This document shows positions 27,020-37,660 of a DNA stretch of 64,000 bases, piece after piece. The stretch's first letter is position 1; the number at the start of each line of letters is the position of its first letter. The position numbers and the translations under genes were made by a program. Origin of the DNA: Nocardia asteroides (GTDB lineage: Bacteria; Actinomycetota; Actinomycetes; Mycobacteriales; Mycobacteriaceae); contig CP082844.1 in assembly GCA_019930625.1 (NCBI GenBank), positions 3,348,001-3,412,000 on the forward strand, read 5' to 3'. The notes under the pieces are model-generated. The model was not told the origin of the DNA. It ran no database searches and saw nothing but the letters and a program-made list of their open reading frames with translations.

Positions 27020-27778
27020 TCAACGCCAGCGTTCGGGAGTGACGGGCGCCTCCCACGCCCGGGCGTAACGGCGCTTGTCAGGAGCGTCGTATTCCTTGCT
27101 GCGGTAGACCACATACGGCCGCACCAGGTAGCCGACCGGCGCGCTGAACATGTGCACCAGCCGGGTGTAAGGCCACAATCCGATCAGCGCGAGCACGACC
27201 AGCCCGTGCAGCTGGAAGGTCCACGGGGTGTCCACCATGAGTTCGGGCTGCGGGCCGAGGGTGAACAGGCTGCGGAACCACGGCGACACCGTCTCGCGGT
27301 AGTTGTAGGTCCCCCACAGCAGGTTGCTGCCCCAGGTGTTGAGCAGACCGGTGATCAGCGCGGCGGCCAGCAGCGCGTACATCAGCTTGTCGTTGCCGGT
27401 CGTCGCCTTGCGGACGGCCGGAACCGTGAAACGCCGGTAGAGCAGGATGGCCACCCCGGCCAGCACGGCGAGCCCGGCCACCGACCCCGCCGAGACGGCG
27501 ATCAGGTGGTAGGCGTGCTCGGAGATCCCCACCGCGGCGGTCCACGATTCCGGGATCAGCACGCCGAGTACGTGACCGCCGAACACCCCGAGCATGCCGA
27601 AGTGGAACAGCGGGCTGCCCAGGCGCAGCAGGCGGCTCTCGTAGACCTGCGAGGAGCGGGTGGTCCAGCCGAACTGATCGTTGCGGTAGCGCCACAGGTG
27701 ACCGAGCACGAACGAGGTGAACGCGACGTACGGCAGGATCAGCCACAGCGCGGTCGGCAGGTTCGGCGTTGCGTTCAT
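27020..27778 (-). CDS. narI: Respiratory nitrate reductase gamma subunit NarI
   Basis: A 252-residue membrane subunit that takes electrons from quinol and passes them through two haems b to NarH. Five membrane helices are visible, starting ALWLILPYVAFTSFVLGHLW. Conserved haem-ligand regions are LFHFGMLGVFGGHVLGVLIP (histidines 59 and 68 by position) and the C-terminal WTFQLHGLVVLALIGLWPYT with VHMFSAP after it. ATG at 27778 overlaps narJ (ATGA). It is the last gene of narGHJI, ahead of a strong terminator. Confidence 0.95.
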   Translation of the reverse strand: MNATPNLPTALWLILPYVAFTSFVLGHLWRYRNDQFGWTTRSSQVYESRLLRLGSPLFHFGMLGVFGGHVLGVLIPESWTAAVGISEHAYHLIAVSAGSVAGLAVLAGVAILLYRRFTVPAVRKATTGNDKLMYALLAAALITGLLNTWGSNLLWGTYNYRETVSPWFRSLFTLGPQPELMVDTPWTFQLHGLVVLALIGLWPYTRLVHMFSAPVGYLVRPYVVYRSKEYDAPDKRRYARAWEAPVTPERWR

Positions 27779-28455
27779 CGTCGGCCTTCCGATCCGTCGA
27801 ACAGGGAGGGGTCCATCGCGAAGGGTTCCAGCCCGACTTCCTCCTCGGGCGGACCCTGCGCGGCGAGTTCGGCGATGCGCCTCCGGTCCGCGGTGGTCGG
27901 CGGCGGCAATGTCGCCCCGATCGCCGCGAGCACTCCGGCATAGGGAGACCCGTTGTCCGACAGGGACAGTCGCAGCAGCTCCAGCACCGGAACATGCTCG
28001 CCGAGCAACCGTTCGCCGCCGATCGGATCGACGGTGGCGGCGAACTCCAGCAGCACTGGCAGGTGGTCGGGCAGTTCCTCGTCGCCGAGTTCGACACCGG
28101 CGTGCCGGTAGGCGTGCTTGAAGCGCAGCAACGCCATTCCGCGCTTGCGGGTGTCGCCGTAGGCGTAGAAGGTCAGGTGCAGGCTGGCGCGGCGGCGCAT
28201 GTCGAAGGTCGCGACATAGTCCGCCGCGAGTTCCAGCGGCGGTGTCGTGCGCAGGTACTCGAGGCATTCGCTCAGGCGGGCGCGCACCTCGTCCGGCAAT
28301 ACGGTCGCGGCGTCGGTGAGTTGACCGATCATGGCCAGCGTCTGCTCACTCGGGTAGTCCAGCAGCAGCGCGGCGATCCGCCACACCAATTGACGGTCGC
28401 GCTGGGCCAGTTCGACCACCGGTTCCGGGCGGCGGCGCAGTTTCAGCAGGCTCAT
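27775..28455 (-). CDS. narJ: Nitrate reductase assembly chaperone NarJ
   Basis: A 226-residue TorD/NarJ-type chaperone needed to insert the molybdenum cofactor into NarG and to attach NarGH to the membrane. Family wording: IAALLLDYPSEQTLAMIGQL, then LELAADYVATFDMRRRASLH, LTFYAYGDTRKRGMALLRFK, and DHLPVLLEFAA. The C-terminal segment is charged. It overlaps narH at its start and narI at its end, four bases each, so the three are probably translated in concert. Confidence 0.94.
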   Translation of the reverse strand: MSLLKLRRRPEPVVELAQRDRQLVWRIAALLLDYPSEQTLAMIGQLTDAATVLPDEVRARLSECLEYLRTTPPLELAADYVATFDMRRRASLHLTFYAYGDTRKRGMALLRFKHAYRHAGVELGDEELPDHLPVLLEFAATVDPIGGERLLGEHVPVLELLRLSLSDNGSPYAGVLAAIGATLPPPTTADRRRIAELAAQGPPEEEVGLEPFAMDPSLFDGSEGRR

Positions 28456-30170
28456 CGACCTGCTCCGGTCGGAGTGGAGTCAGGCTCACCGGCGACGGTG
28501 CCGCTCGAGCCGTTGGTGTGCCCGTTGCCGACGCCGTTCGCGTGCCCGTTGCCCGCGCCGTCGGCATGCCCGTTGCCGTTGGTCGGCAGCAAACCGTCGG
28601 TGCTCTTGCCGTCCCAGTTCAACAGGTTGATCCGGGACGACTTCTCCTGCGGCGCGGCATCATTGGAGTCGGTGAGGTGGAACTTCTCCACCATCTGGTC
28701 GAACGCCGTCATACCCGGCCCGCCGTCGGTGTCCAGGCTGCATCCGGTGGCGAGCGAATCCAGTTCGTGCGCGCGGGCTCCCGCGCCGGTCGGGATGACG
28801 TAGCGGTGCTCGTACTTGGCGATGGCCAGCAGCCGGTACATCGCCTCGATCTCCTCCGGCTCCAGCCGCACCGACGGCGCGATCGAGGGGTCCGGCTCCT
28901 CGCCGAGATTCACCGACCGCATGAACGAGCGCATCGCCGCCAAGCGTTGCAGGGCGGCGCGCACCGGCCCCACCTCGCCCGCGGTGAACAGCTCCGCGAG
29001 GTACTCCACCGGAATGCGCAGCGCGTCGATGGCGCCGAACAGGTTCGACGCGTTCTCGCCGTCGTGGCCGGTCTCGGTGAGCACGTCCACCACCGGCGAC
29101 AGCGGCGGCACGTACCAGACCATGGGCATGGTGCGGTATTCCGGATGCAGCGGCAGCGCGATCTGGTAGTCCACGATCAGCTTGTAGACCGGCGAATCCT
29201 GGGCCGCCTGGATCCACTCCGGCGAGATCCCGGCCCGCTCCGCTTCGGCGACCACTCGCGGGTCATGGGGATTGAGGAACACCCCCAGTTGAGACGGGTA
29301 GAGATCCTTGTCGTCGGTGACCGACGCGGCCTCCAGCACGGCGTCGGCGTCGTAGAGCATGACGCCGATGTAGCGCAGCCGCCCGACGCAGGTCTCCGAG
29401 CACACCGTCGGCATGCCCACCTCCACGCGCGGGTAGCAGAAGGTGCACTTCTCCGCCTTGCCCGTCTTGTGGTTGAAGTAGATCTTCTTGTACGGGCAAC
29501 CCGACACGCACTGCCGCCAGCCGCGGCACTTGTCCTGGTCCACCAGCACGATGCCGTCCTCGGCGCGCTTGTAGATCGCGCCGGAAGGACACGAAGCCGC
29601 GCACGAGGGATTCAGGCAGTGCTCGCAGATCCGCGGCAGGTAGAACATGAAGGTCTCTTCGAACTCCAGTTTCACCTGATCGGACAGCTTCGCCAGCAGC
29701 GGGTCCTTGCCGACCTGCTCGGGGCCGGAGCCGAGATCGTCATCCCAGTTCGCGCCCCAGGTGACCTGCGTATCCTCGCCGGTGATCAGCGATTTCGGTC
29801 GCGCGACCGGCGTGGTGTCGGTGGGCGGTGAGGACAGCAGGTTGTCGTAGTCGTAGCTCCACGGCTCGTAGTAGTCCTCGACCGTGGGCAGATCCGGGTT
29901 GGCGAAGATGTTCAGCAGCCGCTCGAGCCGGGACCCGGACTTCAGGGTGAGCTTGCCGCGCTTGTTCAGCGTCCAGCCGCCCTTCCACTTCTCCTGATCC
30001 TGGTACTGGCGCGGATAGCCCTGTCCAGGGCGGGTTTCCACGTTGTTGAACCAGACGTACTCGGTGCCGCCGCGGTTGGTCCAGGCCTGCTTGCAGGTGA
30101 CCGAGCAGGTGTGGCAGCCGATGCACTTGTCCAGGTTCATCACCATGGCCAGCTGTGCCATGACGCGCAT
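28452..30170 (-). CDS. narH: Respiratory nitrate reductase beta subunit NarH
   Basis: A 572-residue electron-transfer subunit with three [4Fe-4S] clusters and one [3Fe-4S] cluster. Cysteine groups in order: CIGCHTCSVTC (about 18-28), CEHCLNPSCAASC, CRGWRQCVSGCPYKK (tryptophan in place of a cysteine, as in NarH) and CTFCYPR with VCSETCVGR. It is slightly longer than the usual about 510-560 residues because of a C-terminal Asn/Gly/His repeat (NGNGHADGAG, then NGHANGVGNGHTNG). The ATG at 30170 follows the upstream stop as TGACATG. It accepts electrons from NarI and passes them to NarG. Confidence 0.96.
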   Translation of the reverse strand: MRVMAQLAMVMNLDKCIGCHTCSVTCKQAWTNRGGTEYVWFNNVETRPGQGYPRQYQDQEKWKGGWTLNKRGKLTLKSGSRLERLLNIFANPDLPTVEDYYEPWSYDYDNLLSSPPTDTTPVARPKSLITGEDTQVTWGANWDDDLGSGPEQVGKDPLLAKLSDQVKLEFEETFMFYLPRICEHCLNPSCAASCPSGAIYKRAEDGIVLVDQDKCRGWRQCVSGCPYKKIYFNHKTGKAEKCTFCYPRVEVGMPTVCSETCVGRLRYIGVMLYDADAVLEAASVTDDKDLYPSQLGVFLNPHDPRVVAEAERAGISPEWIQAAQDSPVYKLIVDYQIALPLHPEYRTMPMVWYVPPLSPVVDVLTETGHDGENASNLFGAIDALRIPVEYLAELFTAGEVGPVRAALQRLAAMRSFMRSVNLGEEPDPSIAPSVRLEPEEIEAMYRLLAIAKYEHRYVIPTGAGARAHELDSLATGCSLDTDGGPGMTAFDQMVEKFHLTDSNDAAPQEKSSRINLLNWDGKSTDGLLPTNGNGHADGAGNGHANGVGNGHTNGSSGTVAGEPDSTPTGAGR

Positions 30171-30171
30171 G

Positions 30172-30411
30172 TCAGTACCGCTTTCTCGCGTCGGGAAGTG
30201 CCTCGTGCGTCCTTGTGCCGCGCTCGTGCATGTCAGTACTCCACTTCCTGCGAGCGCTCATGGACGCAGCGTGGTGACCTCGTCGGGCCATGTCAGTACT
30301 CCACTTCCTGCGAGCGCTCATGGACGCAGCGTGGTGACCTCGTCGGGCCATGTCAGTACTCCACTTCCTGCGAGCGCTCATGGACGCAGCGTGGTGACCT
30401 CGTCGGGCCAT
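30172..30411 (-). CDS. Possible 79-codon leader reading frame made of tandem repeats, between narG and narH
   Basis: The narG stop reads TGACATG, and the ATG at 30411 opens a frame of 79 codons. It consists of three copies of a 20-residue unit (MARRGHHAASMSARRKWSTD) and a 19-residue end, MHERGTRTHEALPDARKRY. It stops with TGACATG again, whose ATG is the narH start. So both ends have the same stop-C-ATG junction and the insert is 240 bases long, a multiple of three. The peptide has no known family, is strongly basic, and was probably made by duplication of the narG end in a shifted frame. It may serve only to keep ribosomes coupled between narG and narH; whether it is translated is not shown. 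Confidence 0.45.
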   Translation of the reverse strand: MARRGHHAASMSARRKWSTDMARRGHHAASMSARRKWSTDMARRGHHAASMSARRKWSTDMHERGTRTHEALPDARKRY

Positions 30412-30438
30412 GTCAGTACTCCACTTCCTGCGAGCGCT
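30229..30438. repeat. 60-base tandem repeat, three full copies plus a 30-base partial copy
   Basis: Copies at 30229-30288, 30289-30348 and 30349-30408 are identical. A fourth, partial copy (30409-30438) is the coding 3' end of narG itself. The stretch 30169-30228 has the same 60-base length and the same CATGTCAGTAC start but is otherwise diverged. The unit is thus derived from the narG end, where the last codons, stop and following bases have been copied. Identical copies suggest recent or ongoing expansion, and copy number is likely to vary between strains. Confidence 0.97.
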
Positions 30439-33400
30439 TCCGGATCGTGGTGACCTCGTCACGCTGATTTCCCGTGGGGCCGTGGTAGTTCAGCGCGAAG
30501 GACTGCTGCGCGTAGCCGCCGATGAGATGGGAGGGCTTGATCATGATGCGGGTGAGCGCGTTGTGGATGCCGCCGCGCTTGCCCCGTCCCTTGGTGTCCT
30601 CGCCGAGTCCTTCGATGCGCGGCACGTCCACCGCGCGGTCCTGGGCGTGGTACATGAACACCGTGCCCTCCGGCATCCGGTGACTGACGATGGCGCGGGC
30701 CACCACGATGCCGTTGCGGTTGATCGCCTCGATCCAGTCGTTGTCGGCCACACCGATCTTCGCCGCGTCGCGATCGGACATCCAGATCGTCTGCCCGCCG
30801 CGCGAGAGCGTCAGCATGTGCAGGTTGTCCTGGTAGGCGGAGTGGATCGACCACTTCGAGTGCGGCGTCAGATAGCGCACGGTGACGCCCTTGTCACCGA
30901 CGTCGCCGATCGAGGGCTCGCGGAACAGCGCGGTCATGTCCAGCGGCGGGCGGAAGATCGGCAGCTGCTCGCCGAGCTCGATCATCCAGTCGTGGTCGAG
31001 GTAGAAGTGTTGCCGCCCGGTGAGCGTGTGCCAGGGCTTGAGCCGCTCGGTGTTGATGGTGAACGGCGAGTACCGGCGTCCGCCGGTCTCGCTGCCCGAC
31101 CACTCCGGCGAGGTGATCACCGGCACCGGACGGGCCTGGGTGTCGGCGAAGGTGATCCGCTTGCCCTCGTGCTCGGCGGCCAGGTCGGCCAGCTGGGTTC
31201 CGGTGCGGCGTTCCAGCGCGTGGAAGCCCTCCACGGCCAGACGACCATTCGTGGTGCCCGACAGCGCGAGGATCGCCTCGGCCGCGTGCGTGTCCTTGGC
31301 CAGCGACGGGCGGCCTTGCGCCACGCCGGACACCACCGTGCCGTTCACCCCGGCGAGGTACTCGACCTCCTGGTCGGGGTAGGTGGTGACGCCCTTGGTG
31401 GTGACGCCGAGCGTGTCGATCAGCGGCCCGAGCGCGGCCATCTTCTCCGCCAGCTTCGGGTAATCGCGTTCGACGACGACCAGTTTCGGCATGGTCTTGC
31501 CCGGAATCGGTTCGCACTCACCGGCTTTCCAGTCCAGTACGCGCCCGCCCGCCTGGGCCGTCGCGTCCGGCGAGTCGTGCTGCAGCGGCACGGCGACGAT
31601 GTCCTTGCGCTTGCCCAGGTGCTTCTCGGCCATCCAGGAGAACCCGCGCGCGATCCGGTGGAAGGCGTCGAAGTCGGTCTTGGCCTCCCACGGCGGCGAG
31701 ATGGCGGGCGAGAAGGCGTGCACGAACGGGTGCATGTCGGTGGAGGACAGGTCGTGCTTCTCGTACCAGGTGGCCGCGGGCAGCACGATGTCGGAGAACA
31801 GCGTGGTGCTGGTCATCCGGAAGTCCAGCGACAGCAGCAGATCCAGCTTGCCGGTGGCCGCGGTCTCCCGCCAGGTCAGCTCCTGCGGCCGCACGCCGGT
31901 GGCGTCGGTGGTCTGCAGGTTGGAGTCGGCGCCGAGCAGGTGGCGCTGGAAGTACTCGTTGCCCTTGCCCGAGGAGCCGAGCAGGTTCGCCCGCCACACG
32001 GTCAGGCAGCGCGGGAAGTTCTCCGGCGCGTCCGGGTCCTCGCAGGCGAAGCGCAGGTCTCCGGATTTCAGCCCGTCCACCACGTGCTCGGGCGCGGTCT
32101 TGCCCGCCGCCTCGGCCTCGTCCGCCAGGTCCAGCGGGTTGCGGTCGAAGGTCGGGTAGCTCGGCATCCAGCCCAGCCGGGTGGCCAGCGCGATGTTGTC
32201 GGCGGCCGTGCGGCCTGCGAACTTTCCGGTGCCGAGCGGCGAGGCGAACGACTCGGCGGTGAAGGGGTCATAGCGCCACTGGTTGTTGGTCAGGTACCAG
32301 AACACCGTGCCCTGCATCTGGCGCGGCGGGCGCTGCCAGTCCAGTCCGAAGGCGAGAGTCGACCACCCGGTGACGGGGCGGCACTTCTCCTGCCCGACGT
32401 AATGCGCCCAGCCGCCGCCGTTCACGCCCTGGCAACCGGTCAGCAGGGTCAAGGTGAAGAACGCGCGGTAGATCTGGTCGGAGTGGAACCAGTGATTGGT
32501 GCCCGCGCCCATGAGGATCATCGAGCGACCGCCGGAACGGTCGGCGTTGTCGGCGAACTCCCGTGCGATGCGCTGCGCCTGGACGGCGGGCACGCCGGTG
32601 ATCGTCTCCTGCCAGGCCGGGGTGTAGGGCTCGGCCGCGTCGTCGTAGCCGCTCGGCCAGGTGCCGGGCAGTCCGTCGCGGCCGACGCCGTACTGCGCGA
32701 GCAGCAGGTCGAAGACCGTGGTGACGCGCTTGCCCGCGACGGTCGTGGTCGGTACCCCGCGGGTGAGCACGCCGGGGGTGTCGCTGTCGAAGCGGGGAAT
32801 CTGTACGGCCGCAGCATCGTCGGTGCGGCCATACAGACTCAGGAGGGGATCGACGTCCCCGAGATCGAGGTTCCAGCGCCCGGCGCCTTCTTCGCCGAAC
32901 CGGTGGCCCAGCGACCCGTTCGGCACCACCGGCTGCGCCCGCTCGTCCAGCAACACGGTCTGGAACTGCACGCCTTCGCCGGTGCGGCCCAGGTCGGCGG
33001 CGGTGAGGAACTTGCCGGGCACATACGCCCCGTCGCGCTCGTCCAGCGTGATCAGGTACGGCAGATCGGTGAAGCGCTTGATGTAGTCGAGGAAGCGCGG
33101 CGTCGACTTCTCGACGAAGAACTCCTTGAGCACCACGTGGCCCATCGCCATGGCCAAGGCCGCGTCGGTGCCGGGACGCGCGGCCACCCACTCGTCGGCG
33201 AACTTGGTGTTGTCGGCGTAGTCGGGGGAGACCACCACCACCTTCTGGCCGCGGTAGCGGGCCTCGGTCATGTAGTGCGCGTCCGGGGTCCGGGTCACCG
33301 GCACGTTCGAGCCCCACATGATGAGGTAGCCGGCGTCGAACCAGTCCGCGGACTCCGGCACGTCGGTCTGGTCGCCGAACACCTGCGGGGAAGCCACCGG

Positions 33401-34123
33401 CAGATCGGCGTACCAGTCGTAGAACGACAGCATGGAGCCGCCGAGCAGCGAGATGAACCGGGCGCCGACGGCGTGGCTGACCATGGACATGGCCGGAATC
33501 GGCGAGAACCCGGCCACCCGGTCCGGGCCGTACTGCTTGATCGTGTACACGTGTGCGGCGGCGGCGATCTCGGCCGCCTCCCACCACTCGGCGCGCACGA
33601 AACCACCCTTGCCGCGGGCGGCCTTGTAGCTGCGGGACTTCTCGGGATCCTCGACGATCTCACCCCAGGCCAGCACCGGGTCCTTGAGCCGGGACTTGGC
33701 TTCCCGGTACAGCTCGAGCAAGGTGCCGCGCACGTAGGGGTAGCGCACCCGGGCCGGCGAGTAGGTGTACCAGGAGAACGACGCGCCGCGAGGGCAACCG
33801 CGCGGCTCGTACTCCGGCTTGTCGGCGCCCACCGACGGGTAGTCGGTCTGCTGCGACTCCCAGGTGATCACACCGTCTTTCACGTAGATCTTCCACGAGC
33901 ACGAACCCGTGCAGTTCACGCCGTGCGTGGAGCGCACCACCTTGTCGTGCGACCAGCGATCCCGGTAGAACTCGTCGGCGCTGCGCCCGCCGACCTTGTG
34001 CAGCGTCCGGTGGTCGGCCGACACCTCGCCCCGGTGGAAGTATTTCCCCAGCCGCAGGAGGGCGTCCCCGGCGTCGACCGCCGGAGCGGAGGGCACGCGA
34101 CCCTGGCTACGCGAATTAACCAC
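30413..34123 (-). CDS. narG: Respiratory nitrate reductase alpha subunit NarG
   Basis: The 1236-residue catalytic subunit that reduces nitrate to nitrite at a molybdenum bis-MGD centre. The N-terminal [4Fe-4S] ligands are His67, Cys71, Cys75 (STHGVNCTGSCSWKI) and Cys110 (RGCPRG). The Mo-ligand aspartate lies in SFYDWYADLPVASPQ, and MWGSNVPVTRTPDAH is the MGD-binding segment. GTG at 34123 is chosen as start because GAAGGGGA precedes it by about 4 bases; the frame is open for 23 more codons without such a site. No Tat signal is expected, since NarG faces the cytoplasm. It ends EVTTIRKRSQEVEY, the part copied in the repeat downstream. Length fits the family. Confidence 0.96.
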   Translation of the reverse strand: MVNSRSQGRVPSAPAVDAGDALLRLGKYFHRGEVSADHRTLHKVGGRSADEFYRDRWSHDKVVRSTHGVNCTGSCSWKIYVKDGVITWESQQTDYPSVGADKPEYEPRGCPRGASFSWYTYSPARVRYPYVRGTLLELYREAKSRLKDPVLAWGEIVEDPEKSRSYKAARGKGGFVRAEWWEAAEIAAAAHVYTIKQYGPDRVAGFSPIPAMSMVSHAVGARFISLLGGSMLSFYDWYADLPVASPQVFGDQTDVPESADWFDAGYLIMWGSNVPVTRTPDAHYMTEARYRGQKVVVVSPDYADNTKFADEWVAARPGTDAALAMAMGHVVLKEFFVEKSTPRFLDYIKRFTDLPYLITLDERDGAYVPGKFLTAADLGRTGEGVQFQTVLLDERAQPVVPNGSLGHRFGEEGAGRWNLDLGDVDPLLSLYGRTDDAAAVQIPRFDSDTPGVLTRGVPTTTVAGKRVTTVFDLLLAQYGVGRDGLPGTWPSGYDDAAEPYTPAWQETITGVPAVQAQRIAREFADNADRSGGRSMILMGAGTNHWFHSDQIYRAFFTLTLLTGCQGVNGGGWAHYVGQEKCRPVTGWSTLAFGLDWQRPPRQMQGTVFWYLTNNQWRYDPFTAESFASPLGTGKFAGRTAADNIALATRLGWMPSYPTFDRNPLDLADEAEAAGKTAPEHVVDGLKSGDLRFACEDPDAPENFPRCLTVWRANLLGSSGKGNEYFQRHLLGADSNLQTTDATGVRPQELTWRETAATGKLDLLLSLDFRMTSTTLFSDIVLPAATWYEKHDLSSTDMHPFVHAFSPAISPPWEAKTDFDAFHRIARGFSWMAEKHLGKRKDIVAVPLQHDSPDATAQAGGRVLDWKAGECEPIPGKTMPKLVVVERDYPKLAEKMAALGPLIDTLGVTTKGVTTYPDQEVEYLAGVNGTVVSGVAQGRPSLAKDTHAAEAILALSGTTNGRLAVEGFHALERRTGTQLADLAAEHEGKRITFADTQARPVPVITSPEWSGSETGGRRYSPFTINTERLKPWHTLTGRQHFYLDHDWMIELGEQLPIFRPPLDMTALFREPSIGDVGDKGVTVRYLTPHSKWSIHSAYQDNLHMLTLSRGGQTIWMSDRDAAKIGVADNDWIEAINRNGIVVARAIVSHRMPEGTVFMYHAQDRAVDVPRIEGLGEDTKGRGKRGGIHNALTRIMIKPSHLIGGYAQQSFALNYHGPTGNQRDEVTTIRKRSQEVEY

Positions 34124-34683
34124 GACGTCCCCTTCGAGCTGTGCAAATCGGGTTGATGTTCCGACTGTAAAGAGGCGCGCACAGCTGGCCAAACGTCTCT
34201 CTCACACCCCATTCGGGTCTGTGGTGAGTTGTGAGATCGCCGCAACGTGACGGTCACGGCCGGACAGGCCCGCCGGGATGCGCGCTGCGGGGCGACCAGG
34301 GAAGATGGACGATGACCTGGCCGGAAGCCGGTCGCGGAGATCAATTCCAGGCAGTGCCGGTGATGCTTTGGAAACGACCGGTTCTCTCGCGCTTTACATT
34401 TGTTAACACAATCGAGCGGGCTTCGGCGGCGTACCTTTTACCGATTTCCGTCCGGGTGCACTCCGGTTTCCCGCATGCGCACAGTTGCTTGGGTCACAAT
34501 TCGCCGTGCGTTTGCCGATGGTCGGAAATTGTTGACGCCGAGGGCAGGATACGCCGAGATCCGGCCTCGAGGGGCCGACTTCGTCGAAGCGGCGAGATGC
34601 CCGCTCATTCGGTCCTGCGGGGGCGGCGCGAGCCCCTAGCTCGGGTCGCCGACAGCGCCAGCGCGGGATCGACGCCCACCGGG
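34124..34683. promoter_or_regulatory. Upstream region of narGHJI with a GlnR-like box
   Basis: This 560-base stretch between mtnC and narG contains no supported gene. It is clearly less GC-rich than its flanks around 34370-34460 and should hold the nar promoter on the minus strand. GTGAT-N6-GAAAC at 34358-34373 (plus strand) matches the actinobacterial GlnR consensus GTNAC-N6-GAAAC in nine of ten positions, about 235 bases before narG. Large plus-strand open frames here are shadows of high-GC sequence. Confidence 0.35.
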
Positions 34684-35367: not shown

Positions 35368-35939
35368 GGCGCGGTCAGCAGCTGGTCGAGGGTGGGGAAG
35401 CCCGCGCTGATCTTGTCGCCGGTGAAGTCGCCGACCCAGCCGTCCTCTTCCTCGAAGAAGCGGATGGCGATGAAATCGGGGCGCTCGCCCATGTCGAACC
35501 AGTGCAGCGTGCCCGCGGGCACCGACAGCAGATCGCCGCCTTCGCACACCACCGCGCAGACCTCTTCGCCCAAGTGCAGGTAGAAGCAGCCGCGTCCGGC
35601 GGCGAAGAAGCGCACCTCGTCCTCGGCGTGCCGGTGCTCGTCGAGGAACTTCCCGCGCGCGCCCTTGGCGATCTCCGGCCACTGCGGGTCGGAGTCGTCG
35701 GGGTGGATGCGGGCGATGTCGATGTGCTTGAAGCGCCCCGACTCGTTCAGTTCGGCGACGTTCGCTTGGTAGTGGGCGAGCAATTCCTCGGAGGACACCG
35801 ACTCGGCGTTCTCGACCACCGGCCAGCGGCCGAAGGTGATGCCGTGCTTCGCCAGTTCGGTGCCGATCAGCTCGTCATCGGTGGTGCGCACACGCACGTC
35901 GGCCGCGTCGCCGGCGGCCATCACTTGCAGCAGGGTCAT
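35364..35939 (-). CDS. mtnD: Acireductone dioxygenase MtnD
   Basis: A 191-residue cupin enzyme that converts the acireductone to the keto acid precursor of methionine and formate (Fe form), or to off-pathway products including CO (Ni form). Metal ligands His102, His104 and Glu108 are in EHRHAEDEVRFF, and His146 is in GTLHWFDMG. It overlaps the upstream fusion gene (ATGA) and the downstream mtnC (GTGA). Confidence 0.95.
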   Translation of the reverse strand: MTLLQVMAAGDAADVRVRTTDDELIGTELAKHGITFGRWPVVENAESVSSEELLAHYQANVAELNESGRFKHIDIARIHPDDSDPQWPEIAKGARGKFLDEHRHAEDEVRFFAAGRGCFYLHLGEEVCAVVCEGGDLLSVPAGTLHWFDMGERPDFIAIRFFEEEDGWVGDFTGDKISAGFPTLDQLLTAP

Positions 35940-37582
35940 GTCAGTCCAATCTCGAGAACGTCGTCGCGCGGGCCGAACGCCGCCGCACTACCGGTGCGAA
36001 TCACCAGTTCACACAATGCTTCCAGGCATTCGGCGCGGTCGCGTGCCTGAGCGAGATCATCACCCCACGCGGTGATCCCGTGTCCCGCGATGACCAGTAC
36101 CGGGAGAGCGCCGGGATGGTCGAGGAGATAACGCTCGATGTCCTCGCCGATGCGGGGGACCTCGGGCCGGTTGGGGAAGACCGGGATGTCCGCCACGTCC
36201 GGATCGCCGCCGCCGAGCCCCTTGATCAGTTCGTAGCCGGTGATCCGGAGCGTGCCGAGCGCGCCGGGAACCGCGGACCGGGTGGCCAGCGCCGTCGCGA
36301 ACGGCGGATGGATGTGCACCACCGCGTGGGCCGGGCGGGTCCGGTAGACAGCGGTGTGGATCGTGGTCTCCGCCGAGGGCCTTCGTCCGTGATCGGCAAC
36401 GGGCGCCGAATCCGCCACGCGCACGGTGACCATGTCGTTTTCGGTGAGTTCGCCTTTGGACAGCCCGCTTCCGGTGACGAGCGCGGTGGCGCCGGTGCGC
36501 ACCGAGATATTGCCCGCCGTGCCCGGCATCCACCCGCGCCGGTACAGCTCGCGGGCGATGTCGGCGATGGCCGTGCCGTGCGACCGATCGGATCGGTGCA
36601 CCACGCCGCGCTCGGTGACCACCGCGGTCACCAGGTCGCCCGGCGTCACGTCGAAGGCCGGGTTGAAGACCTCGGTGTGCGCGGGAGCCGTTGCGACACC
36701 GCCGAATCCGGTCACCTCGGCCGCCGCGCGTTGTTCCACGACGATCTCCCGGCCGGTGGCCATCGCGAGATCGCGGGTCGATTCCGGGGCGACCACGACG
36801 AACGGTATGCCGTGATGACGGGCGGCCAGCGCGAGGCCGTAGGTGCCGATCTTGTTGGCGACGTCGCCGTTGGCGGTGACCCGGTCGGCGCCGACGAGCA
36901 CGCAGTCGACCTGCCCGGTCGCCATCGCCCAGGCGGCGGCGGAATCGATGGTCAGCCGGTGCGGGATACCCGCTTCGGCGAGTTCCCAGGTGGTCAGCCG
37001 CGCGCCCTGTAGCAGCGGGCGGGTCTCGTCGACCAGGACGCGCTCGATCGCGCCGCGATCGGACAGCACCCGCAGCGTGCCGATGGCGGTGCCGAACGCG
37101 CTGGTGGCCAGCCTGCCGGTGTTGCAGTGGGTGAGCACGCGCAGCGGACGGTCGGGACACAAGCTCTGCACCAGGTCGGCGGCGTGCGTGGCGGCGGCCC
37201 GGTTGACCCGGCCGTCCTCGGCCAGCATGTCCAGCGTCTCGGCGAGGACGGCGTCGGCGCCCCGGCCCACGTGGGCCCGCACCCGTCGCACCGCCCAGGC
37301 CAGGTTGACCGCCGTCGGCCGCGCCGCGGCGATCCGGTCCGCCTCGGCTCGCACCGCGGCCTCGTCGACCACGCCGTCAACGGTGTGCGCGGCGGTGGCG
37401 ATGACGACGCCGAACGCGCCCGCGATGCCGATGGCGGGCGCGCCGCGGATGGCCAGCGTCTCGATCGCCTCGATGATCTCCTCGACCGTGCTCAGCCGCA
37501 GCTTACGTACCTCGTGCGGCAGTCCGCGCTGGTCGATGGTGACGAGCGCGCCGTCGTCCCAGACCAGAGAGCTGTCGTCCAT
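35936..37582 (-). CDS. mtnAB: Fused MtnA-MtnB: methylthioribose-1-phosphate isomerase and methylthioribulose-1-phosphate dehydratase
   Basis: One 548-residue protein with two consecutive enzymes of methionine salvage. Residues 1 to about 328 are MtnA: RGAPAIGIAGAFG (46-58), catalytic Cys153 in LTHCNTGRLATS, and Asp233 in VGADRVTANGDVANKIGTY. Residues about 338-548 are a class II aldolase-like MtnB: RRGWMPGTAGNISVR, GSGLSKGEL, zinc-type VVHIHPPFA (His423/His425), IAGHGITAWGDDL. Usually these are separate. A join here would channel the ribulose phosphate. ATG at 37582 is preferred over 37591 because AAGGA lies 9 bases upstream. Note there is no stop between the halves. The next genes are mtnD and mtnC. 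Confidence 0.94.
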   Translation of the reverse strand: MDDSSLVWDDGALVTIDQRGLPHEVRKLRLSTVEEIIEAIETLAIRGAPAIGIAGAFGVVIATAAHTVDGVVDEAAVRAEADRIAAARPTAVNLAWAVRRVRAHVGRGADAVLAETLDMLAEDGRVNRAAATHAADLVQSLCPDRPLRVLTHCNTGRLATSAFGTAIGTLRVLSDRGAIERVLVDETRPLLQGARLTTWELAEAGIPHRLTIDSAAAWAMATGQVDCVLVGADRVTANGDVANKIGTYGLALAARHHGIPFVVVAPESTRDLAMATGREIVVEQRAAAEVTGFGGVATAPAHTEVFNPAFDVTPGDLVTAVVTERGVVHRSDRSHGTAIADIARELYRRGWMPGTAGNISVRTGATALVTGSGLSKGELTENDMVTVRVADSAPVADHGRRPSAETTIHTAVYRTRPAHAVVHIHPPFATALATRSAVPGALGTLRITGYELIKGLGGGDPDVADIPVFPNRPEVPRIGEDIERYLLDHPGALPVLVIAGHGITAWGDDLAQARDRAECLEALCELVIRTGSAAAFGPRDDVLEIGLT

Positions 37583-37660
37583 CGGGCACATCCTTATCGC
37601 GTCGAGCCGTGTCGTGCCTGGTCAACGGTATCGGACGGCGGACGGCGGGCCGAAATCGCG

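Follow-up and report, generated by a model that had tools for sequence, protein, structure and literature searches.

Organisation of the narG-narH junction

The window, by which we mean the entire 64,000-nucleotide stretch of Nocardia asteroides DNA analysed here, contains the nitrate reductase genes narG, narH, narJ and narI on the minus strand, all named after NCBIfam equivalog models. narG (30413..34192) encodes the alpha subunit and matches TIGR01580 over residues 45-1253. It ends in TAC TGA, with the stop codon at 30415-30413; its upper end at 34192 is a mechanical TTG start from the list of open reading frames (ORFs), the true start not being settled. narH (28452..30170; TIGR01660) encodes the beta subunit, starts with the ATG at 30170-30168 and overlaps narJ (27775..28455; TIGR00684) by 4 nt at its end. 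The start of narI (27020..27778) in turn overlaps the narJ stop by 4 nt. The narI ATG at 27778 was read off the sequence, and the ORF covered by the model TIGR00351 spans 27020-27763. Elsewhere in the window (35936-37591, minus strand), a single frame matches the models for both MtnA and MtnB of methionine salvage and looks like an MtnA-MtnB fusion.

narG and narH are separated by a spacer of 242 nt (30412-30171, minus strand) that consists of four units. Units 1 (30353..30412), 2 (30293..30352) and 3 (30233..30292) have the same sequence, measure 60 bp each and are copies of the narG 3' end, including its TGA. We refer to such narG-tail units as type A. They are followed by a 61-bp unit of different sequence, type B (30172..30232). 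TRF reports a repeat at 30229-30438 with a period of 60, 3.5 copies and a 100% match, in which the half copy is the narG end itself. This agrees with a first-pass annotation of the DNA, which had described three identical 60-bp copies plus a piece of narG. The annotation further took the junction to have been duplicated four times, which holds for the three narG-tail copies and fails for the fourth unit with its different sequence.

All four units are traversed by a fused micro-ORF of 79 codons plus stop (240 nt; ATG at 30411 to TGA at 30172, minus strand), the stop of which forms the end of the type B unit. The micro-ORF starts 1 nt past the narG stop, and its TGA lies 1 nt ahead of the narH ATG. 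Translation thus confirmed an open frame of 79 codons with the stop/start junction kept at both ends, as had been noted before. The insert length of 240 bases given at the same time is that of the ORF; the spacer has 242 nt, and the net insert over the usual TGA-C-ATG junction is 241.

A Shine-Dalgarno-like stretch, AGGAAGTGGAG, is located inside the narG end ahead of the micro-ORF start (30419..30429, minus strand). It recurs in units 1-3, in each of which it is followed by TACTGACATG. Another Shine-Dalgarno-like stretch, AGAAAGCGG (30178..30186, minus strand), precedes the narH start. The pairing computed for L082, which is the same locus as the window, is -8.8 kcal/mol at AGGAAGTGGAG and -8.1 kcal/mol at AGAAAGCGG. 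A consensus scan covering sigma-70-type promoters and simple terminators returned neither, and the predicted RNA fold is not unusual (z -0.89, with 16/100 shuffles folding as well).

No other array with a period of 30-200, 2.5 or more copies and a match of 90% or higher was detected in the 464 kb scanned of the 7.4-Mb genome. Among 626 junction-like sites in 664 kb, comprising the same 464 kb and 200 kb of two actinobacterial plasmids, the narG-narH junction is the only stop/start site that is exactly repeated (at least 12 bp, within 260 bp). The array is beyond chance. Identical tandem copies are a known hazard of genome assembly and could in principle have arisen as an artefact. The probability of this is close to nil, as the 7.4-Mb genome is assembled into 2 contigs and arrays of slightly diverged units are found in other assemblies (L120, L194, L207, L210).

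Inserts across Nocardia and the turnover of units

A narH match at E 1e-100 was obtained for 141 of 150 Nocardia genomes, sampled as one genome per species, and the junction regions of 130 were taken. The 11 genomes left out include several that have only a 68-70% narH type or cut matches. Parsing was possible for 128 of the 130 junctions, since L123 and L166 end at a contig edge. Eighty of the 128 have no insert and a stop-to-start distance of -1 to +3 nt, and 48 have a longer spacer. We treat 47 of the latter as inserts and set L181 (Nocardia G044) aside because its narG frame stops early. The L181 frame ends about two dozen codons before the usual narG tail, which reflects either a genuine premature stop or an error in the sequence.

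Type A units, as assigned by eye, are present in 18 of the 47 inserts. Next to the three 60-bp units of the window, we find three 61-bp units in L100, L120 and L194, two units in L207, two shorter ones in L210 and a single unit in each of twelve others. The number of narG-tail units between Nocardia species is therefore 0, 1, 2 or 3. Such a comparison had been proposed in the first-pass annotation, which named a repeat of the same fixed length in all relatives as an outcome that would speak against its proposal; because copy number differs between species, this is not what we observe. The remaining 29 inserts consist of type B or other sequence and reach lengths of up to 177 nt, measured to the linked narH start. 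Type B is found near the species of the window, with two units in L083 and two fused units in L085. Among relatives with a single type B unit, all length differences between the inserts are divisible by three.

Several other inserts at this site deserve mention. Long ones of 38-58 codons, all open and linked, occur in L142 and L144, in L132, and in L099, L158, L160 and L163. An insert of ~30 nt with a common GCTTGCGGAGTG stretch is found at the narG-narH site of L043, L053, L054, L068, L069 and L081, which belong to Mycobacteriaceae and uncultured Pseudonocardiales or Actinobacteria. Most of these ~30-nt inserts also end in ATGA at the narH start.

The two unit types differ in their relation to narG. 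The 60-bp unit corresponds to the narG tail plus ~4 extra bases and agrees with the narG 3' end at 48/54 aligned positions. The last 24 nt of the type B unit match the own narG tail at 12/24 positions only, and type B occurs without other units in close relatives. L088 and L090, the two rows nearest to the window in the tree, each have one B unit alone and no A unit. Since both have B only, units 1-3 were either gained on the line of the window or lost in L088 and L090. The junction of L090 is identical to that of L004, which is recorded as Nocardia abscessus.

Each of the six multi-unit type A arrays (L082, L100, L120, L194, L207 and L210) has, next to narG, a unit that equals the genome's own narG tail over the last 24/24 nt. 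In the case of L120 (units 1-2) and L194 (unit 1), this own tail is shared by none of the 127 others. The narG tail of L210 and of the window is common, being identical in 18/127 others, and because of this the unit match says little about origin in these two. In the five relatives, the last unit differs from the narG tail by one to six bases; the window has the B unit in this position. The match between tail and unit fits slippage or unequal exchange between the two. Near-identity upstream does not ensure a shared insert: L117 has one and L129 has none, with 348/351 upstream bases alike. Close to the end of its narG tail, L129 departs from L117 at two positions by having the letters of the unit. 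This hints at a collapse of the insert, but it could be the older state.

In a tree built from late narG and early narH (387 columns), insert presence needs 24 changes in 128 Nocardia and 29 over 158 rows. Well-supported branches alone force at least 17 of 30 changes over the 158 rows when L181 is counted as an insert, with the bootstrap behind this count not fully settled. Type A requires 14 changes on the tree, and multi-unit arrays require 7, that is, about seven gains. Multi-unit arrays have thus evidently expanded separately in several species.

Linkage of the narG stop to the narH start

We call an insert linked if the narG stop is connected to a narH start by successive ORFs, each opening with ATG or GTG, and every step lies within -4 to +3 nt. 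By this relay test, to which the micro-ORF of the window also conforms, 47/47 Nocardia inserts are linked, and the count is again 47/47 under a stricter rule of -1 to +2 nt. The micro-ORF chains bridge 27 to 242 nt with a spacing of mostly +1 nt. The first narH ATG is a possible target in 39/47 inserts; in the other 8/47 it is a second in-frame ATG only.

Shuffling the inserts at fixed length leaves 30.3/47 linked, and many GC-rich inserts stay open by chance. If the distinct layouts are compared with shuffled sequence in a random frame, 27/27 are linked against 10.3 expected. This excess would amount to ~1e-12 for independent layouts, a figure that is too small because the layouts are not fully independent. 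The link survives random removal of 1, 2 or 3 nt in 12%, 56% and 99% of trials, respectively. As controls we used 39 pairs of codirectional neighbours separated by 20-260 nt from the first 150 kb of the Nocardia plasmid pNF1, one of which is linked (1/39). These plasmid pairs have no duplicated boundaries and are an unmatched control; the shuffles are therefore the fairer test. One plasmid record has no feature table and supplied no control pairs, but its DNA is included in the 664-kb count given above. Outside Nocardia, 7/7 spaced junctions among the named loci are linked, two of them only via a GTG step, as are 2/2 spaced junctions in a sample of the order. TGATG overlaps without a spacer were classed by eye as directly coupled.

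Linkage is conserved, and the peptide is not, even where the frame stays open. Type A peptides start with MSPTRSP or alike in some species and with MIRRGHD or MARRG in others, which corresponds to a one-base shift over the same DNA, and most of them still finish in the narG frame (SQEVEY or alike). In the window, the one-base shift is not corrected within the unit, and the 60-bp period carries the frame through three units until it stops where the B unit ends. Type B peptides mostly finish in DARKRY or a similar ending. Within a unit type, the frame that is read varies among species, yet it ends at the narH start.

It could be argued that the micro-ORF encodes a functional peptide, as the frame is open in 47/47 inserts and most type B peptides share the DARKRY-like ending. 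We consider this highly improbable and rejected a conserved peptide as a candidate: the sequence is unconserved and the frames of one unit type vary between species, a word-based search of limited reach, which needs shared 5-residue words, found no relative of the 79-residue peptide, and 80/128 junctions are without any such ORF.

The mean pairing with the 16S end is -8.3 kcal/mol before micro-ORF starts (56 starts). Before narH it is -8.5 kcal/mol after an insert (47) and -8.2 kcal/mol without one (80), and random places in narG have weaker pairing (-5.3 kcal/mol; 635 places). In L132, L098 and L110, which are reached only by the second narH ATG, the pairing is nearly absent (-0.6 to -0.8), which counts against a ribosome site there. 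Because narH usually has its own ribosome site, coupling may be non-essential. The linked frames might then be a mere by-product, in which narH uses its own site, the spacers are neutral and the frames result from GC-rich composition together with duplicated boundaries. The outcome of the fixed-length shuffles would agree with this, as would the strong average pairing that narH retains after an insert. Even so, such an origin appears quite unlikely, as linkage is complete where little more than a third of the layouts would be expected to be linked once the frame may vary, and as one-base shifts between species are compensated inside the unit itself. The retention of linkage in every insert examined instead suggests selection for linked translation of narG and narH.

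A proposed ribosome relay and its relation to known systems

Reporters from Haloferax and E. coli, as described in the available part of PMC10666635, indicate that gaps of ~20 nt nearly abolish termination-reinitiation. An insert of such a size would for this reason break the coupling of narH to narG unless it is bridged by an ORF. We propose, as the probable explanation, that DNA at the stop/start junction was duplicated and that the copies were kept because termination-reinitiation coupling was preserved. The narG-narH junction would couple the translation of two subunits of the same enzyme, and its DNA would have been tandemly duplicated repeatedly in Nocardia. Because ~25 nt of the narG end hold a Shine-Dalgarno-like stretch, the stop and the next start, each copy would bring a whole landing site, and a narG-end copy could bridge by itself if its length fits. 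Slippage, or unequal exchange with the narG tail, may then raise or lower the number of units, and an insert would survive only if a micro-ORF still connects the narG stop to the narH start. A ribosome that finishes narG would reinitiate, translate through the insert and arrive at narH. Units of 61 bp would form a chain of separate 19-codon ORFs, and units of 60 bp would form one fused 79-codon ORF; both designs are predicted to survive a change in copy number. From the comparisons above we infer that the inserts are translated, that reinitiation takes place and that selection is the cause of the retained linkage.

The next junction in the gene order allows a look at the same arrangement elsewhere. 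Of 97 narH-narJ loci, which include some genomes twice, 74 have a candidate narJ start within -8 to +10 nt and 23 are spaced. In 13/23 spaced junctions (L019, L024, L033, L035, L042, L105 and others), a micro-ORF provides a link to one of the candidate starts, of which up to three were considered, and 10/23 are not linked. Such a micro-ORF overlaps narH by 4 nt and ends at a narJ start, and some have 56-78 codons. The non-linked junctions count against a ribosome relay, with the caveat that the starts there are uncertain. As starts are loosely assigned, we merely note narH-narJ as a second site.

The first-pass annotation had suggested that copy number tunes the NarG:NarH ratio. If copy number were selected to set this ratio, each unit would have to provide a reinitiation step or a ribosome entry site. 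Indeed, every unit carries a ribosome site and a start, the number of narG-tail units varies from 0 to 3, multi-unit arrays account for 7 changes on the tree, and in the 61-bp chains each copy would add one step. The suggestion nevertheless did not hold up well, and we regard adaptive tuning as unlikely. Because the 60-bp units of the window keep one fused frame, an extra unit would leave the number of reinitiation steps unchanged. Even species that are near-identical (L117 versus L129) differ in whether they have an insert, a pattern that simple tolerance of inserts would produce. As NarG and NarH both belong to one complex, an altered ratio would be without obvious use. A broader version, in which the relay itself evolves and both copy number and unit length are selected to set the reinitiation steps between the subunits, likewise seems rather unlikely.

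If preserved coupling explains the inserts, the narG-narH junction provides a natural experiment on translational coupling, with 27 insert layouts at one gene pair, all of them linked. It would constitute evolutionary evidence of selection for coupling between enzyme subunits. Some micro-ORFs may thus exist for passing ribosomes on and not for their peptides, and the copying of the end of the upstream gene suggests a route by which they could arise. The 60-bp and 61-bp arrays would lead to different testable predictions for a change in copy number.

In a literature search that covered few subscription journals, we found no report of narG-narH intergenic translational coupling, of an intergenic tandem repeat in Nocardia nitrate reductase genes, or of translational coupling via a tandemly duplicated short ORF or stop codon in an operon. 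On reinitiation in connection with intergenic repeats and their copy number, the same literature yielded a single synthetic-biology review. A search for Nocardia interspersed or variable-number repeats gave no Nocardia repeat by title among the best 10 of 15 matches, and coupling was not found treated in the accessible portion of PMC9094748.

Three known systems bear comparison. According to the available text of PMC10666635, termination-reinitiation pairs have stop and start within a few nt and often encode subunits of one complex, which is also the arrangement here. The spacing in the window, +1 nt at both ends, lies within the range of ~-8 to +10 nt that characterises coupled pairs. Unlike plain pairs of this kind, the Nocardia chain is kept by one or more bridging micro-ORFs over 27 to 242 nt. 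In upstream ORFs that deliver ribosomes, and in engineered bicistronic designs, a short ORF likewise supplies a ribosome and not a peptide (PMC12548453, accessible part). The Nocardia ORF differs in that it bridges two coupled genes and consists partly of copies of the end of the first.

A third likeness is to MIRUs (mycobacterial interspersed repetitive units), short repeats with an ORF that is coupled to the downstream gene (PMC12548453, in the text available). They lie between codirectional genes and also occur in tandem, such as the three 77-bp copies between senX3 and regX3 in H37Rv (PMC4213456, in the part accessible). The statement in the first-pass annotation that no such case has been described was therefore too strong, as these sources, as far as their available text goes, provide an analogue. 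The similar position and layout, together with type B and other inserts that have no identified source, could point to a mobile MIRU-like repeat that inserted at the stop/start site. We consider this very unlikely. A search of the window's own genome (7.4 Mb, 2 contigs) places the array at a single site and the B unit at a single site, with a next best B match of 19 nt at E 0.24 that is short and weak, and a dispersed MIRU-like element was rejected on these grounds. Type A units, moreover, are copies of the narG 3' end, which points to local duplication and away from a moving insertion element. MIRUs are described, in the available text, as mobile and dispersed with a -4 nt spacing. The Nocardia array sits in one place, its ORF abuts the neighbouring genes at +1 nt on both ends in the window, where -4 nt spacing is absent, the spacing in Nocardia is mostly +1 nt, and its type A unit derives from the upstream gene narG itself and has multiplied independently in several species. 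The array would work in the manner of a MIRU tract. We nevertheless file it as a coupling-preserving intergenic repeat and not as a MIRU, set apart from MIRUs, as these are described, by dispersal and by its narG origin.
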